From Paracoccaceae bacterium (GTDB lineage: Bacteria; Pseudomonadota; Alphaproteobacteria; Rhodobacterales; Rhodobacteraceae): DNA of 64,000 nucleotides. This document shows positions 57,857 to 64,000 of the stretch, piece after piece. Positions within the stretch are counted from its first letter, which is position 1; each line of letters starts with the position of its first letter. The notes beneath the pieces were generated by a model that saw only the letters and a list, made by a program, of their open reading frames with translations, searched no databases and was not told the origin of the DNA. The position numbers and the translations under genes were made by a program. The DNA lies in assembly GCA_027489355.1 (NCBI GenBank), contig JAIXZY010000076.1, positions 1-64,000 on the forward strand, written 5' to 3'.

Positions 57857-58246
57857 TCAGGGCTGGTCGACGTTGACCAGCATCAGCGCAGCGCGGCGGA
57901 AGGTCGCCATGATCTCCTGACTTTCCTTCTCGGGTACACGGGTTTCGACCATCGCGCGCTGCATCACCGCCAGCCAGTCCTCGGCATCCTGACGGCGGAT
58001 TTCCACATGCGCGTGGATCTCGCGCAGGTTCATGTGGCCGTGCAGCTCGTGGTAATATCGCCGCCCACCGAAGAAGCCGCAGAGGAAATTGAACTGTTCC
58101 GGGCGGACATGGGACAGCCCGTGACCGCGCTGATGCATGGCCATGATGGCCGCCCCTTGCGGCAGGGTTTCGATCAGGTCGTAGAAGTGGTTCACCAAGA
58201 GGTGAACCTGCGCCTCGCCGCCGATCCGATCGATCATCGGTTCCAT
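57857..58246 (-). CDS. Group II truncated haemoglobin
   Basis: Group II truncated haemoglobins bind O2, NO or peroxide on a 2-over-2 globin fold. The 129-residue protein has the N-terminal GGEAQVHLLVNHFYDLIETLP, a Phe/Tyr-rich B-C region, LCGFFGGRRYYHELHGHMNLREIHAHVEI with proximal His78, and Trp91 in DAEDWLAVM (the Trp-G8 typical of group II). The ATG at 58246 has GGAGG 5 nt upstream. It is convergent with the glycosyltransferase gene (3-bp gap). A role in NO or oxygen stress is likely. Confidence 0.92.
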   Translation of the reverse strand: MEPMIDRIGGEAQVHLLVNHFYDLIETLPQGAAIMAMHQRGHGLSHVRPEQFNFLCGFFGGRRYYHELHGHMNLREIHAHVEIRRQDAEDWLAVMQRAMVETRVPEKESQEIMATFRRAALMLVNVDQP

Positions 58247-58342
58247 CGCATCCTCCCATTCCGGATCCGTTCTATTGACATCGGACCTGAACTTCAAAGG
58301 TTCCGAAGCGGAGTTCTTGAAGACCCCGCCCCTGCCGTGCCC

Positions 58343-60712
58343 TCAGCTTTGTGGCCGCGTCTTCTTCGGGTCGTAGTGGGACAGCGGCACGATCACCGCC
58401 GGAAGCCGCTTCTGCTGGCCGTCCAGCTTGCCGACCTCGATCGCCGTTCCCACCTCGGCATGCGCCACGTCAACCCGCGCCAAGGCGATGTTCTTGCCCA
58501 GGATCGGCGAACGGACGGACGAGGTCACTTCTCCGACCTGAGCGCGCCCGACGTGCAGGCAGTCGCCGTGGCCGACGTCAACATTGCTGTCGATCTCAAG
58601 CCCCACGAACTTGCGGCTGGGGTGTTCCTTGCGGCGGATCAGCGCCTCGCGGCCCACGAAGTCGTCGGTCTTGGATTTCAGCGGAACGGTAAAGCCGATC
58701 CCGGCCTCGAACGGGTCGGTCTGGTCGCTGAAATCGTATCCGGCGAAGATCAGACCGGCCTCGATCCGCACCATGTCCAGCGCCTGCAGCCCCATCGGTT
58801 TCAACCCAAGGTCCCCGCCATTGGCCCAGACCGCGTCATAGACCGCCGAGCCGTCCTTGGGATGGCAGAAGATTTCAAAGCCAAGCTCGCCGGTGTAGCC
58901 CGTCCGCGACACCACCACGGGGGCGCCCGACGGACCGCCGATCCGGCCCACGGTAAAACGGAACCAGCCCAGCTCCTCGATTGTCGGCTGGTGCGGCGCG
59001 GTCCAGATCATGCGCTTCATGATCTCGCGGCTGTTCGGCCCCTGGACCGCCAGGTTGTGCAGCTGGTCGGTGGAGGACCGCACCATGACCTGCAGCCCCA
59101 GCTTCTCGGCCTGCTCGCGGATCCAGTGCCCGCCATATTCGTCCCCGCCGATCCAGCGGAACTGGTCGCGGCCCAGGCGGAAGACGGTGCCGTCGTCGAT
59201 CATCCCGCCGTGCTCGTAGCACATCGCGGAATAGACCACCTGGCCCTGGCTCAGCTTCTTCATGTCGCGCGTCAGCACCCACTGCATCAGCGCCTCGGCG
59301 TCCGGTCCCGTGACCTCCCACTTCCGCAGCGGCGACAGGTCCAGGACCACCGCCGCCTGACGGCAGGCCCAGTATTCCTCCAGCGCGCCGTTCGACGAAT
59401 AGGCCTGCGGCAGCCAATAGCCTTTATACTCGACCACGTTCCGGGTCTTCTGGCTGATCCGGTCGTGGAAGGCGGTTTCCTTGGTCATCTTCGGCTCCGA
59501 GGCGGGCGTGGGGCGGTAAGCGATGGACCGGCTGAACTTTTCAGCGCCGGAATAGGTGCGGACATGGATGTCCGACAGGTACCAGCCATTCGCCGGCGAG
59601 GTGTCGTCCGGGCAGGCCGAGTTCACGCAGACGATGTCCGTCAGCGCGCGGAACAGCACATAGTCGCCGGGCCGCGACCAGGGTTCGTCGCTGATCAGCA
59701 CGCCATGCGCGTCGATGTTGGTGTTGAAGAACAGGTTCACCGCCATCCAGCCCGGGCGTGGATCAACTCCGTGCCCCGCCAGCGCCTTGTTGAAATTGTC
59801 CGAGCAGTTGACATGCCCCGGATAGCCGATGTCGTCATAGTACTTCGACGCGCAGGCCATTGCGAAGGCGTCATGGCGGCCGACCGTGTCCTGCACCACC
59901 TCGACCAAAGGCACCCAGTCCTGATCGTAGTATTTCGAATGCAGGCCGGGCATCGAATAGGCGTGGCCCATCAGGGTCCGCGAGGTCGTCACGTCCAGCG
60001 CGTGCTGGATGCCCTTGTCCAGCTTCCGCGCATCGAAGCACTGGAAGTCGGTGCACTGGCGACCATCCACGTCCAGGATCTGGATGTAGTCCCCCGCCTT
60101 GACGAAATAGCTTTCCGCCGTCGCCGACTTTACCCGCAGATCCAGGATCGGGTCGGCAAGGGGGTCCGGCAAGTCATAGTGCCCCACCATCCGCGGCTTG
60201 GCCCGCTGGACCAGAAGCGTCACCTGGGTGGCGGTATCCTGTGCGTCGGGCGCCATTGGCAGGCCGGGCGCGCAGACCACCAGCCAGCCCTCGTCAAGAG
60301 CCGTCAGTTCAGCCCGGGTGCCCGCCGGAGTCTCGACCCCGAACAGGCGCAGCGCCCCGGCCTTCGCCAGATCGATCTTCCGCGCCGTCAGCCCCTTCCG
60401 CAACTGCACGAGGCTCTCTTCGCCCGAAGCGAGCATGGCCTTCAGCCCGTCCGCCGTGGAGTTAGCCGCTTGACCCAGGATGGCGGGGTCGATCCGCCCG
60501 TCCCTGGCCGCTGCAACCAGCTCCACCGCCTGACCGCCCTCATCGTTGACCAACGTCAGCCGGTCGCCGACCATGAGCTGCAGCAACACGGCACCGCCGC
60601 CGGGCACTACGTGCCGCTCCTGCCCATGATGGCGCGAAAAACCCTGCGGAGTCAGAATCCTGCTGGGACGCGGTGGACCGGAAAGCACATTGGGATAGAA
60701 CGTGTCGAGCAT
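58343..60712 (-). CDS. DUF1989-GcvT fusion: tetrahydrofolate-dependent aminomethyltransferase-like protein
   Basis: The 789-residue protein has two parts. Residues about 1-390 contain a duplicated DUF1989 (urea carboxylase-associated) region, clearest in KAGDYIQILDVDGRQCTDFQCFD and HGVLISDEPWSRPGDYVLFRAL. Residues about 410-789 form a GcvT tetrahydrofolate-binding module (ALEEYWACRQAAVVLDLSPLRKWEVTGPDAE; SRTGYTGELGFEIF; GLQALDMVRIEAGLIFAGYDF; PFEAGIGFTVPLKS). Such GcvT proteins occur with haem-dependent N-demethylases, where they pass formaldehyde to THF. It lies near the DUF3445 gene, on the same strand but split from it by a divergent exporter and a regulator gene. Confidence 0.85.
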   Translation of the reverse strand: MLDTFYPNVLSGPPRPSRILTPQGFSRHHGQERHVVPGGGAVLLQLMVGDRLTLVNDEGGQAVELVAAARDGRIDPAILGQAANSTADGLKAMLASGEESLVQLRKGLTARKIDLAKAGALRLFGVETPAGTRAELTALDEGWLVVCAPGLPMAPDAQDTATQVTLLVQRAKPRMVGHYDLPDPLADPILDLRVKSATAESYFVKAGDYIQILDVDGRQCTDFQCFDARKLDKGIQHALDVTTSRTLMGHAYSMPGLHSKYYDQDWVPLVEVVQDTVGRHDAFAMACASKYYDDIGYPGHVNCSDNFNKALAGHGVDPRPGWMAVNLFFNTNIDAHGVLISDEPWSRPGDYVLFRALTDIVCVNSACPDDTSPANGWYLSDIHVRTYSGAEKFSRSIAYRPTPASEPKMTKETAFHDRISQKTRNVVEYKGYWLPQAYSSNGALEEYWACRQAAVVLDLSPLRKWEVTGPDAEALMQWVLTRDMKKLSQGQVVYSAMCYEHGGMIDDGTVFRLGRDQFRWIGGDEYGGHWIREQAEKLGLQVMVRSSTDQLHNLAVQGPNSREIMKRMIWTAPHQPTIEELGWFRFTVGRIGGPSGAPVVVSRTGYTGELGFEIFCHPKDGSAVYDAVWANGGDLGLKPMGLQALDMVRIEAGLIFAGYDFSDQTDPFEAGIGFTVPLKSKTDDFVGREALIRRKEHPSRKFVGLEIDSNVDVGHGDCLHVGRAQVGEVTSSVRSPILGKNIALARVDVAHAEVGTAIEVGKLDGQQKRLPAVIVPLSHYDPKKTRPQS

Positions 60713-60838
60713 GGGCCACCCCGTTGTCAGACCCGGCCCTTCGGCGCGGGAAGTTTAACTAGGATAAAACTTGTTCATTCAGAAGAATAGCGTCAGGGTG
60801 AGCCTGACACAAGCACAAGCGCAGGGGAAGGCGACGAA
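60713..60838. promoter_or_regulatory. Divergent promoter region with two inverted repeats
   Basis: The 126-bp gap between the divergent DUF1989-GcvT and DMT-transporter genes contains GTCAGG-N5-CCTGAC (60792-60808) and AAGTTT-N10-AAACTT (60751-60772). The AT-rich centre around 60751-60790 probably holds the promoters. Either repeat could be the operator for the nearby GlxA-type regulator. Assignment is from symmetry only. Confidence 0.5.
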
Positions 60839-61699
60839 ATGCTGGCTCTCGGCTTCGGCCTGACCGCCGCCCTTCTTTGGGCGGTGCATGATCTTCTTGC
60901 CCGCAAGCTCAGCCAGGGCGCGGCGCTGTTGCCGATCCTTGCTGTCGTGCTCGCCTCCGGGGCAGTGGGACTTCTTCCGGTGGCGGGGATCGTGGGTGGC
61001 TGGGACCGGATGACCGGAGGCGCCTGGGCCATCGCGGCGTTGTCGGGTCTGGCTTTCGCGGTGGCGATCGGCGGGCTGTACCGGGCCTTCAGCCTGGCCC
61101 CCGTGCGCCTGGTCTCGCCGGTCGTCGGGGCCTATCCGCTTCTCAGCCTGCTGATCGCGGCCGCGCAGGGGCGCCCTGTGCCGCCCGGAGACTGGCTCGC
61201 CGTCCTTGCCATCGTCATCGGCATCGCAATCGTCGCCATTGCCGCTCGCGACGACGCGCCCGAGGGCTATGCCGCCCCTCCCGGAGTGGCCATCGCCTGG
61301 GCGGCAGTTGCGGCGCTTGGCTTCGCGGGCACCTTCGCCCTGGCCCAGGCTGCCACGCGCATCGGGGCCGAGCTGCCGGTGATGCTGACCGGTCGGGTGG
61401 TGGCCTTGCTGGTGGTCGGAAGCCTGATGCTCTGGCAGGCCGCCGGTCGCCTGCCACCGCGTGGACAGCTCTGGGTCTTGTCCGGCATGGGACTGCTCGA
61501 CGCGTTGGCGCTTGGCCTGGTGACGGCGGCCGGGGGGCATGTCCATGCCGAGTATGCCTCGGTCGCCTCCTCGCTCTTCGGAGTGCTGACGGTCCTGCTG
61601 GCCGCCTGGTTCCTGAAGGAACGCGTCCGCCCCGTGCAATGGCTGGGCATAGCCGCTGTCTTCACCGGCATCGCGATGCTGGGGCTGCTGGGCATCTGA
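60839..61699 (+). CDS. EamA/DMT-family transporter
   Basis: The 286-residue protein has ten predicted membrane helices as two EamA repeats (first MLALGFGLTAALLWAVHDLLARKLSQGAALLPIL, second GVAIAWAAVAALGFAGTFALAQAATRIG). The second repeat ends with AEYASVASSLFGVLTVLLAAWFLKERVRPVQWLG, the hallmark of drug/metabolite exporters. GGGGAAGG precedes the ATG. It is divergent from the DUF1989-GcvT gene and convergent with the AraC gene. It may export an amine or metabolite of the local pathway; substrate unknown. Confidence 0.88.
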   Translation: MLALGFGLTAALLWAVHDLLARKLSQGAALLPILAVVLASGAVGLLPVAGIVGGWDRMTGGAWAIAALSGLAFAVAIGGLYRAFSLAPVRLVSPVVGAYPLLSLLIAAAQGRPVPPGDWLAVLAIVIGIAIVAIAARDDAPEGYAAPPGVAIAWAAVAALGFAGTFALAQAATRIGAELPVMLTGRVVALLVVGSLMLWQAAGRLPPRGQLWVLSGMGLLDALALGLVTAAGGHVHAEYASVASSLFGVLTVLLAAWFLKERVRPVQWLGIAAVFTGIAMLGLLGI

Positions 61700-61702
61700 G
61701 CA

Positions 61703-61735
61703 ACGGCGGGCGGAGACCGCCCACCCTACGCCCGC
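61703..61735 (+). repeat. Dispersed CCACCCTACGC-tailed hairpin, copy 3
   Basis: GGCGGGCGG pairs with CCGCCCACC (one mismatch) around AGA, followed by CTACGC. It starts about 5 nt after the exporter stop codon, in the gap before the convergent AraC-type gene, as in copies 1 (20728) and 2 (22646). Confidence 0.65.
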
Positions 61736-61738
61736 GGC

Positions 61739-62746
61739 CTATTCCGCCGCCTCCACCCGAGCGGGTGCGCGGCGCAGGGTCTGGGTCAGGCGGCGTTCGT
61801 CACGCGGGGAGACACCGAAAAACTCGGTATAGTGCCGGATCATCGGGCTGGAGGTCATGTAGCCGACCGAGGCCGCGATCTCTCGCAGGCTGTCGTTGGA
61901 ATAGAGCACCCGCTGCCGGGCCTTCTGCAGGCGCAGGTGGTGGTAATAGCGCAGGGGGCTCTGCCCGGTCTCGCGCTTGAACATACGCTCGAAGTGTCGA
62001 CCGGACACGCCCACGGCTGCGGCCACGTCAGGAATGCGCAACGGGTCCTCGACGTGGGTCTCGAACAGCCGGATCGCCTCGCGGATCGCAGCCGGAAGAC
62101 TGTCCGTCGTGCCGCCCGCCCGCGCCACGGGCACCTTCTGGCTGGCGTCGGCATCGCGGACGAAGGGGTGCTGGAACCAGCAGGCCACCTCGGTCATGCA
62201 GTCGCGCCCCAGGCGTTCTTCGATCAGCCGCAGCATCAGGTCGAAGACCGCGCCCGAGCCTGATGCCGTGATCCGGCGGCCTTCGCGCAGGATCGTGACC
62301 TCACGCGCTTCGACATTGGGGAAGTCGGACTTGAAGGCCGCTTCGTAGCACCAATGCACCGAGCAGGGCCGTCCGTCCAGAAGGCCCGCCCGCGCCAACG
62401 GGAAGATCCCGCCCGAAAAGGCCCCCAGTGTCACTCCGGTCCGGTCCAGCCAGCGCAGTTTCGCCGGGCTTCGCCGGGGATCGGCAAACTCGGCCGTCGG
62501 TGGCGACAGGATATAGAGGTGGTCCACCCCCTCCAGGTCCTGCAGCGTGAGGTCAGGGTCAAAGCCGATGTCGGCCGAGGACCGCACCGGCGCCGGACTT
62601 TCCGCCACCAGCTTCCAGACGAACTCGCTGCGCCCGGTGATTTCGTTCGCCGCGCGCAAAGGCTCGATGGCCGAGGTGAGGCAGGCCATCGGAAAGCCCG
62701 GGAACAGCAGGAATCCCAGGCGGAGGGGACCGGTCCGCTCAGTCAT
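61739..62746 (-). CDS. GlxA/GbdR-type AraC-family transcriptional regulator
   Basis: The 335-residue protein has an N-terminal DJ-1/PfpI-like (class I glutamine amidotransferase-like) domain (about 8-185: LGFLLFPGFPMACLTSAIEPLRAANE; GVTLGAFSGGIFPLARAGLLDG, where GAFSGG replaces the usual nucleophile-elbow Cys). A C-terminal AraC DNA-binding domain follows (about 230-325, IPDVAAAVGVSGRHFERMFKRETGQSPLRYYHHLRL). This is the architecture of GbdR, CdhR and ArgR-type activators of betaine, carnitine and amine catabolism. It overlaps the DUF3445 gene by 8 bp, so it is made together with the enzyme. Confidence 0.9.
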   Translation of the reverse strand: MTERTGPLRLGFLLFPGFPMACLTSAIEPLRAANEITGRSEFVWKLVAESPAPVRSSADIGFDPDLTLQDLEGVDHLYILSPPTAEFADPRRSPAKLRWLDRTGVTLGAFSGGIFPLARAGLLDGRPCSVHWCYEAAFKSDFPNVEAREVTILREGRRITASGSGAVFDLMLRLIEERLGRDCMTEVACWFQHPFVRDADASQKVPVARAGGTTDSLPAAIREAIRLFETHVEDPLRIPDVAAAVGVSGRHFERMFKRETGQSPLRYYHHLRLQKARQRVLYSNDSLREIAASVGYMTSSPMIRHYTEFFGVSPRDERRLTQTLRRAPARVEAAE

Positions 62747-63803
62747 CTGGCCACCATCCGGGCGAGGTCGGCGCCCCGTCGTCGTACTTGGACAGCCATT
62801 CCACCATCGCCGGCCGGTTGCGGATGAAGCCCTTGTAGGTCGCGAGTTCGTCCGGCAGATCGCGAATGACGCGGTGCAGGCGGCGCGCCCATTTCGGCAC
62901 AGTCACGATCTCGTCGAAGCTGGCCAGGTAGCAGCGGATGTCGAAGGCGATCGCGTTCGACCGGGGCAGACGGTAGAGGCTCTGCAGCTCGACCCGCAGG
63001 TGCTGTTTCTGGCCCAGGTTCTCGGGCGTGAGGGTCGTCTTCATGGGCCCCCATTTCGGATAGGTCTCGGGCGCGGTGTCCAAAAGCGGGTTCACCGTCA
63101 TCGTCCAGTTGAACCGCCGCACCGGCGCGCCATGCTGTAGCTTCAGCAGGAACTTCAGCGCCCGGTCGAAGACGCCCTTCTCATGCGCCAGCGGCACGGG
63201 GGCGTGCCATTCGTGGAAGTTCATGCCGACGTCGAAGTCTACCGACCAGTCCGCCTGGCTGGTCGCGATGCCGGCGTCCATCCAGAGCGTCCCGTCGCGT
63301 TCGTCCTGCAGGGTCCAGTCGCCCTGGGTCTGGCGCATGATGTACTCGAACGGCCCGCAGGGCAGCGTCGATTCGTCAAGGAAGGTGAACGTCTGCTCGA
63401 TCCCAAGCGGCCGGTTCACCCAGTGCCAGCGGTTGCCGTCCTTGGTCAGGCTGAACCACTGCGGATAATCGCGGGACTTCGCCTCCATGATCAGTTCCAG
63501 CGTGTCCCAGCCGGCGAGCGTCATGTGCGGCAACGACTGGCAGCGCAGCGGGTCCTCGGCCAGAACCTTGGCGCGGTCCTGCATCTCGGCGACGTAGTGT
63601 TCGTCCACGTCCAGCAGATGCTCAAACACCGTCCCAGGGCGGCCCGGCACATGTGGCTCCATATTGACGGAATACATGTAGTCGTCGCGGTCGAAGGGAA
63701 ACGGGAACCGGCGCGGATTGCTGTTGCGGTAGGTGAAGTCTCCGCGGAACGTCTCGTCGCGGAAGAAGTCGTTGAAGGCACCAGGCTTGAAATCGAGGCT
63801 CAT
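62739..63803 (-). CDS. Haem-dependent oxidative N-demethylase alpha subunit (DUF3445)
   Basis: DUF3445 proteins are PAS-fold haem enzymes that oxidatively demethylate secondary amines such as dimethylamine to methylamine and formaldehyde. The 354-residue protein has the family segments FPFPFDRDDYMYSVNMEPHVPG (about 33-54), FSLTKDGNRWHWVNRPLG, TFTFLDESTLPCGPFEYIMRQTQGDW, FDVGMNFHEWHAPVP and VRRFNWTMTVNPLLD. It starts 9 bp after the ferredoxin-domain gene and overlaps the regulator gene by 8 bp. The family assignment is firm; the exact amine substrate is inferred. Confidence 0.88.
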   Translation of the reverse strand: MSLDFKPGAFNDFFRDETFRGDFTYRNSNPRRFPFPFDRDDYMYSVNMEPHVPGRPGTVFEHLLDVDEHYVAEMQDRAKVLAEDPLRCQSLPHMTLAGWDTLELIMEAKSRDYPQWFSLTKDGNRWHWVNRPLGIEQTFTFLDESTLPCGPFEYIMRQTQGDWTLQDERDGTLWMDAGIATSQADWSVDFDVGMNFHEWHAPVPLAHEKGVFDRALKFLLKLQHGAPVRRFNWTMTVNPLLDTAPETYPKWGPMKTTLTPENLGQKQHLRVELQSLYRLPRSNAIAFDIRCYLASFDEIVTVPKWARRLHRVIRDLPDELATYKGFIRNRPAMVEWLSKYDDGAPTSPGWWPDD

Positions 63804-63812
63804 CGTCTTCTC

Positions 63813-64000
63813 CTATCGGTCGATGACGAGGGTCTTGCCCTCGAAGCGGCTGACGCAGGGCATGATCTTGGTATTCGATGCCTGCTCTTCCGGTGACAAC
63901 CAGTGGTCGCGATGCAGGATCGTACCGTCGCAGCGCACGACCGCGGTTTCGCACTGACCGCAGGCCCCGCCGCGGCAGAGATAGGGCGCATCGACACCAT
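63813..64000 (-). CDS. C-terminal plant-type [2Fe-2S] ferredoxin domain of the N-demethylase reductase (partial)
   Basis: Only the last 61 codons are in the window; the gene runs off the right edge. The visible part has the ferredoxin cluster motif LCRGGACGQCETAVV (three Cys) and the fourth Cys in IMPCVSRFEGKTLVIDR. A C-terminal ferredoxin is expected on phthalate-dioxygenase-reductase-type subunits, which pass NAD(P)H electrons through FMN to the haem subunit. It ends 9 bp before the DUF3445 gene, consistent with one operon. Confidence 0.88.
   Translation of the reverse strand, partial: GVDAPYLCRGGACGQCETAVVRCDGTILHRDHWLSPEEQASNTKIMPCVSRFEGKTLVIDR

Follow-up and report, generated by a model that had tools for sequence, protein, structure and literature searches.

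A predicted aerobic trimethylamine and dimethylamine utilisation cluster in a Tabrizicola-like Rhodobacterales bacterium, with a conserved truncated haemoglobin and a divergent transporter beside tdm

The 64,000-nucleotide stretch analysed here (the window; positions 1 to 64000 of contig C68 in the 81-contig, 4.2-Mb assembly GCA_027489355.1) ends inside a locus that is almost certainly a cluster for aerobic utilisation of trimethylamine (TMA) and dimethylamine (DMA) in a Tabrizicola-like Rhodobacterales bacterium, with TmaR-like control; a truncated haemoglobin and an EamA transporter are putative accessories. Contig C68 extends to 78,092 bp, which allowed the cluster to be traced beyond position 64000. 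Its gene content and order can be read directly from the DNA: on the minus strand, in falling order of coordinates, mgsA, mgsB, mgsC, gmaS, tmm, an APC-family permease gene, dmmD, dmmA, dmmB, dmmC, a regulator gene, tdm, and the globin gene, with the plus-strand EamA gene between regulator and tdm. The initial annotation, which covered positions 58343 to 64000, had recognised an amine N-demethylation locus with a haem enzyme, a ferredoxin reductase, a folate enzyme, a regulator, and a DMT-family transporter, in an arrangement broken by a divergent gene. Our results support that observation as real and its interpretation as largely right: the five genes named are all in frame there, the last being cut by the window edge, the divergent gene is the EamA gene, whose product belongs to the DMT family, and domain and model matches bear out the rest. 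We also considered a dmm operon broken at the window edge and rejected it, as the operon continues intact past 64000. The pathway itself is already known, and what we describe is a complete cluster in a further host, with two conserved putative accessory genes for which we found no published test, one of them just outside the region first annotated.

Two matches put the assignment of the locus beyond chance. The folate protein of the window passes the trimethylamine N-oxide (TMAO) demethylase equivalog NF053776 (1218.7 bits against a cut-off of 1100, residues 22 to 788), and the DUF3445 protein, DmmC, matches the solved haem-dependent oxidative N-demethylase (HODM; PDB 5lte) with 466 bits over residues 17 to 343. 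The former, Tdm, carries DUF1989 (152.5 bits), GCV_T (233.7 bits), and GCV_T_C (64.0 bits) domains and matches the TMAO demethylase crystals PDB 9q59/9q5a with 1279.6 bits over residues 5 to 789. DmmC has the HODM_asu-like domain PF11927 (228.9 bits) and, at E ≤ 0.001, matches one distinct solved sequence, that of HODM (5lte and two more entries), with no difference noted at the level of the overall sequence alignment. Full-length DmmB contains NAD_binding_1 (PF00175, 30.3 bits), Fer2 (PF00111, 44.7 bits), and FAD_binding_6 (PF00970, 21.7 bits, barely above the cut-off of 21.1), so that the gene upstream of dmmC is the flavin/ferredoxin reductase that had been expected. DmmA matches PF22290 and PF22289 along with the DmmA domain model NF041259 (109.5 bits against a cut-off of 60), and DmmD matches GCV_T (196.9 bits). 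Farther out, Tmm passes equivalog NF058570 (839.3 against 675), the permease passes the TMAO permease (Methylocella type) equivalog NF053774 (817.5 against 690), and GmaS passes the type III glutamate-ammonia ligase model (661.5 against 469.6). The mgsABC names rest on domains and on order beside gmaS because no curated Mgs model reached its cut-off; the coordinates of mgsA and mgsC are approximate, and the MgsA and MgsC query sequences were trimmed at non-start codons. Past 64000, where the initial annotation had looked for these parts, lie the missing portion of the reductase gene and the genes for the small subunit DmmA, for Tmm, GmaS, and MgsABC; tdm, sought there too, lies inside the window. 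A homologue of MgdC, 69% identical to the MgdC encoded beside the dmmDABC-regulator locus L128, is found on contig C11, with two weaker relatives at 54% and 45%. The genome encodes three long SoxA/MgdC-type proteins, at C11:51219-54233 (likely MgdC), C19:194565-197522 (with one in-frame TGA), and C16:29873-32788.

Taken together, these genes would form the following pathway. Tmm would oxidise TMA to TMAO, or TMAO would come in via the permease; Tdm would cleave TMAO to DMA and formaldehyde, its GcvT domain handing the C1 unit to tetrahydrofolate. DmmB would pass electrons from NAD(P)H via flavin and its 2Fe-2S centre to DmmC, the haem-PAS subunit. Together with DmmA and using O2, DmmC would oxidatively demethylate DMA to monomethylamine (MMA) and formaldehyde, and DmmD would put the DMA-derived formaldehyde onto folate. 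GmaS, MgsABC, and the unlinked Mgd would then convert MMA to glutamate and a C1 unit, and the TmaR-like regulator would govern the gene set. Gene context suggests that the globin and the EamA/DMT transporter are accessories of this pathway; our leading guesses are that the globin may handle O2 or nitric oxide (NO) on behalf of the haem step, which depends on O2, and that the transporter may export an amine or a pathway intermediate. In Ruegeria pomeroyi, growth on TMA and TMAO required dmmD, and its dmmABC expressed in Escherichia coli are reported to convert DMA to MMA 1:1, more slowly when dmmD is added (PMC5520151). All four dmm mutants of Paracoccus aminophilus fail on DMA, loss of dmmD harmed growth on TMA far less than loss of the other dmm genes, and growth is said to be regained with the dmmDABC module, with data not shown in the source (PMC4543880).

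Two other readings of the enzymes can be weighed on this evidence. The initial annotation had implied that the GcvT-type protein of the window is the folate partner of the HODM/Dmm enzyme, which would leave a single demethylation at the locus. That protein does carry GCV_T and GCV_T_C domains and is encoded near dmmC, but it also has DUF1989, it passes the TMAO demethylase equivalog and matches the Tdm crystals end to end, and a separate, GcvT-only protein of 379 residues, DmmD, is encoded directly 5′ of dmmA; a HODM folate subunit in the window is hardly tenable. Given the equivalog and crystal matches, we assign the window protein as Tdm and DmmD as the folate partner of HODM, and two demethylation steps are therefore present. 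It is also very improbable that the haem enzyme acts on some other secondary or tertiary amine, such as sarcosine, dimethylglycine, or a xenobiotic, with the TMA genes as mere neighbours. Sequence by itself cannot tell the substrate, and the genome encodes other GcvT-bearing oxidase-like proteins, but dmmC is part of a dmmDABC operon that has tmm, the TMAO permease gene, tdm, and gmaS-mgs on its flanks, and relatives of the enzyme act on DMA; sarcosine or dimethylglycine is not needed as a substrate.

The nearest cluster among those with published genetics that we compared is that of P. aminophilus JCM 7686 plasmid pAMI6 (NC_022044). Its tmm, APC permease, dmmDABC, tdm, and group II truncated haemoglobin genes lie on one strand in the same order as here, the full arrangement being purU-folD-tmm-APC permease-dmmDABC-HTH-tdm-trHb-amtB (HTH, helix-turn-helix regulator; trHb, truncated haemoglobin), and identities are 74.9% for DmmC, 73.2% for Tdm, and 56.5% for the globin. 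Unlike the cluster described here, it has folD and purU upstream of tmm, and gmaS-mgs lies elsewhere on the plasmid (PMC4543880). Between dmmC and tdm it has a Cro/cupin-type regulator (L137:13138-13803) in place of the TmaR-like and EamA genes of the window, and a TmaR-like gene is therefore not universal at that spot. R. pomeroyi DSS-3 (SPO1548-1588) shares tmm, tdm, dmmDABC, gmaS-mgsABC, and an AraC-type regulator after dmmC (PMC5520151, PMC13390433) but is described as having the ABC importer TmoXWV and the repressor TmoR, whereas the present cluster has an APC permease and no search for TmoXWV or TmoR was made; its mgdABCD genes lie beside tmaR and TmoR, whereas mgdC is on another contig here (PMC13390433). 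When named genomes were scanned and the best 80 of 431 confirmed loci kept (a list from which records of the window's own or a near genome may be missing), the nearest DUF3445 proteins proved to belong to Tabrizicola soli, other Tabrizicola, Rhodobacter, and Gemmobacter, at 95% identity and down. The likeness to marine Rhodobacterales that had been drawn initially does not hold in this set, as these are not the classic marine Roseobacters. In close relatives an unrelated glycosyltransferase (GT2) gene is often kept too.

Table 1. Features of the methylated-amine locus in the window and beyond it on contig C68.
Feature	Coordinates	Strand	Basis or remark
Group II truncated haemoglobin, immediately 3′ of tdm	57857..58297	-	PF01152, 78.7 bits; TTG start as listed
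tdm, trimethylamine-N-oxide demethylase, DUF1989-GcvT fusion, 789 aa	58343..60712	-	NF053776 and PDB 9q59/9q5a
Divergent promoter region tdm/EamA, 126 bp, with palindromic candidate operator	60713..60838		
EamA/DMT-family transporter, 286 aa, divergent from tdm	60839..61699	+	PF00892, two stretches
GATase1-like/AraC-type regulator, TmaR-like, 335 aa	61739..62746	-	PF12833
dmmC, haem-PAS N-demethylase subunit (DUF3445/HODM alpha), 354 aa	62739..63803	-	PF11927 and PDB 5lte
dmmB, reductase, 320 aa	63813..64775	-	In window: 3′ end (2Fe-2S domain), 63813..64000
dmmA	64772-65398	-	Past window, C68
dmmD, 379 aa, GcvT-only	65456-66595	-	Past window, C68
TMAO permease (APC)	66753-68546	-	Past window, C68
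tmm	68862-70205	-	Past window, C68
gmaS	71145-72455	-	Past window, C68
mgsC	72504 to about 73835	-	Past window, C68
mgsB	73840-74529	-	Past window, C68
mgsA	74534 to about 75439	-	Past window, C68

We next turn to the control of the cluster. The regulator gene overlaps dmmC by 8 bp, and its product combines an AraC-type helix-turn-helix domain (77.6 bits) with a DJ-1/PfpI-like N-terminus slightly below cut-off (24.2 against 26.6). It had been described as GbdR-type; it is indeed a relative of GbdR with an AraC-type domain, but with 223.6 bits against a cut-off of 480 for NF052371 we rejected it as GbdR itself. In R. pomeroyi the AraC-type activator TmaR (SPO1584), encoded between dmmDABC and mgdABCD, activates tdm, dmm, gmaS, and mgd (PMC13390433). 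The regulator of the window is 49 to 52% identical to its counterpart in seven dmmDABC-regulator-mgd loci (L115, L123, and L127 to L131; 50% over 318 residues in one comparison); the mark of the TmaR clade is >44% identity to R. pomeroyi TmaR, and the comparison here was with the seven loci, not with that protein itself. Its gene directly follows dmmDABC, which is a TmaR trait, and is not beside mgdABCD, which is a common but not universal one, the best MgdC match being on C11. Because of its position and its approximately 50% identity to these regulators, we regard it as probably TmaR-like.

A palindrome, TGTCAGG-N5-CCTGACA, was first spotted by eye at two promoters and scanned for afterwards. 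It occurs with one mismatch each at 60791 to 60809, between tdm and EamA, and at contig positions 66633 to 66651 (L002:9634-9652), in the dmmD promoter. With up to two mismatches on one strand, 30 sites were found in 2.35 Mb (all loci from L033 on). Among loci L033 to L167, a site lies upstream of tdm in 12 of 81 scanned (a count that takes in L138, the copy from the window itself, and that recurs as 12 of 55 for EamA, with which tdm shares the region) and upstream of dmmD in 13 of 93, in close relatives only, and none was present in the scanned regions upstream of tmm, the permease gene, mgsA, gmaS, or the globin gene. At up to three mismatches L002 has 3 sites against 0.77 expected, a number reached in 7 of 200 shuffles, and no excess is seen over the window as a whole (4 against 2.62 expected). 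Since it was found in close relatives and not upstream of those five genes, we treat the palindrome as a candidate operator.

To our knowledge, truncated haemoglobins rarely have an assigned pathway. The conserved globin gene that abuts tdm lay outside the coordinates of the initial annotation, which did not cover it. Compared with the 2-on-2 and truncated haemoglobins in the PDB, its product is closest to 2xyk (E = 1.3e-16), which we take to be an Agrobacterium protein; it shows the group II pattern of 2xyk (conserved Phe-Tyr, His, and Trp) and by sequence belongs to the same family as 2xyk and the related HbO (1ngk). Residues Y39, H95, and W108, presumably B10, F8, and G8, are identical in at least 97% of 29 aligned sequences, that of the window included. 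For the counterpart in P. aminophilus the annotation is group II truncated hemoglobin, and an ATG at about 58246 suits that protein's length of 133 residues better than the listed TTG. Among the matches listed in the open-licence literature, no published link of such a globin to methylated amines was found: "globin" is absent, inside any word, from the main texts of PMC13390433 and PMC5520151, as are "hemoglobin" and "haemoglobin" from the main text of PMC4543880, and passages of PMC11537045 name haemoglobin only as a product of 5-aminolevulinic acid.

The presence of the globin tracks dmmC. We compared Tdm and globin coordinates across 292 Rhodobacterales genomes, counting globins with one query at E ≤ 1e-15, a setting that misses remoter globins (two fragments in G155 were merged into one); the strong DmmC set leaves out matches of E 1e-9 or worse, and the strong Tdm set leaves out paralogues of 554 to 646 bits, 18 genomes with only such a paralogue being counted as without tdm. 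Strong Tdm occurs in 63 genomes, strong DmmC in 59, and the globin in 38, of which 36 have strong Tdm (Fisher 1.7e-26) and 37 have DmmC (Fisher 2.8e-30), both values ignoring shared ancestry. By genotype, the globin is present in 36 of the 56 genomes that carry both tdm and dmmC and in 1 of 3 that carry dmmC without tdm; it was found in 0 of 7 that have tdm without dmmC and in 1 of the 226 that lack both genes. It lies at most 500 bp from tdm in 25 of the 38, from 15 genera (on the same strand in 24 and on the opposite one in G092), elsewhere in the same cluster (on the same contig, no more than 15 kb from tdm or 20 kb from dmmC) in 8, and on another contig or far away in 5. In the six of these eight loci that were read (G264 and G129 being the others), a DMT gene stands beside the globin in five, four of which have gmaS on the other side; four of the five distant globins were read (all except G034, a 52-residue partial match), and their neighbours are folD, an EamA gene, gmaS, and none such, respectively. 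Of the 80 named loci, 52 contain the tdm 3′ end and at least 550 bp of room; in these, the globin is adjacent on the same strand in 31 and not in 21.

A divergent, adjacent EamA/DMT gene is present in 49 of the 59 loci, among the 80 named ones, that have the tdm start and at least 1,500 bp upstream, as it is across the 126-bp promoter region here. On plasmids of Ruegeria conchae, Ponticoccus, and Parasedimentitalea, the DMT gene diverges from the globin gene rather than from tdm, near gmaS-mgs, and the R. conchae DMT protein is 41% identical to the EamA protein of the window over 280 residues. In 13 of 47 annotated plasmid records with a globin match, picked by hand and mostly from the top, methylated-amine genes lie near the globin in 7 (P. 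aminophilus, R. conchae, P. alcaliphilus, Paracoccus sp. MA, Ponticoccus, Methylobacterium DM1, and Parasedimentitalea, where the match falls in two pieces); of the others, two from Aminobacter lie beside a 5-formyl-tetrahydrofolate cyclo-ligase gene, two occur with nif genes, and two with neither. In P. alcaliphilus the globin gene is flanked by amtB on one side and by genes for nitrate/nitrite assimilation on the other. In Paracoccus sp. MA and G185 a small gene with a cupin domain comes after the globin gene (L170:8429-8785, L179:6825). Identity to the window globin does not separate these plasmids cleanly, the linked P. alcaliphilus and Paracoccus sp. MA proteins reaching 36% and an unlinked Paraburkholderia protein 45%. 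A loop motif, LHxRGHGxxHxR..EQFxFLxGF(F/L)GG, sorts better, if imperfectly: it is found in most methylamine-linked globins read, with QGAG in three Paracoccus-type sequences and KGFG in the Paraburkholderia protein just named, and RGHG also occurs in the Aminobacter globins and in the neighbourless L183. Two nif-linked globins, Sphingomonas, and the weak match L198 have MHxxDL...L(S/C)xWLGG instead; nif-linked truncated globins without the RGHG loop are found on Paraburkholderia and Methylococcus plasmids (L188, L189).

Several points weigh against the cluster and accessory functions proposed here. The MgdC homologue lies on another contig than the cluster and was sought with one protein, and each enzymatic step is inferred from named work on relatives and from protein families. 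For the globin, 22 of the 59 dmmC-bearing Rhodobacterales genomes have no close homologue; among the 36 genomes outside the order that were positive in a class-wide draw of 385, it is found in 0 of 8 with dmmC and in 1 of 28 with tdm or a paralogue and no dmmC, this match being weak, of a different subtype, and without the motif. Moreover, the Tdm reaction is reportedly O2 independent, an odd fit with an O2-supply role for a globin abutting tdm. The globin is accordingly an optional accessory, given the 22 genomes without it, and a lineage-restricted one, as the link was not found outside the order with few exceptions: the Methylobacterium DM1 plasmid and two contigs titled Rhizobium metagenome-assembled genomes (L079, L085).

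How the globin and transporter should be read is less settled than the enzymes. They may be passengers, housekeeping genes kept beside tdm by shared ancestry, and it fits this that conservation is strongest in close relatives, where GT2 is often kept as well, and that no globin abuts tdm in the 21 named loci just mentioned or occurs in dmmC-positive genomes of other orders. We nevertheless consider it unlikely, as the tdm-globin pair recurs in 15 genera, divergent DMT and globin genes recur away from tdm in five of six loci read (four beside gmaS) and near gmaS-mgs on the three plasmids named above, and a close homologue occurs in a single one of the 226 genomes without tdm or dmmC. Slightly less doubtful is a globin that scavenges NO rather than carrying O2, shielding DMA from nitrosation to nitrosodimethylamine or the DmmC haem from NO. 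DMA is a secondary amine and DmmC a haem protein, the globin tracks dmmC rather than tdm alone, and the P. alcaliphilus neighbours belong to nitrate/nitrite assimilation; nothing here points to NO production, however. A further reading, plausible though somewhat less likely than not, is that a distinct RGHG subgroup of group II globins and the divergent EamA/DMT transporter may form a dedicated accessory module of aerobic methylated-amine demethylation. Found in Rhodobacterales and in a small number of Rhizobiales, such a module might serve or shield DmmC, perhaps through the handling of NO or O2. Because the commonest neighbour of the globin is tdm while its presence tracks dmmC, we suggest with modest confidence that it is a helper at the level of the pathway, with O2 or NO handling as its likeliest job.

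Methylated amines contribute to the formation of aerosols and belong to the pool of organic nitrogen in the sea (PMC5520151, PMC13390433). Our analysis places a complete cluster for their use in a Tabrizicola-like lineage and tells its two folate enzymes apart. What may carry over to other systems is the finding of the conserved globin and transporter: gene context suggests the pathway in which this globin may serve, and the suggestion is testable in the tractable P. aminophilus.

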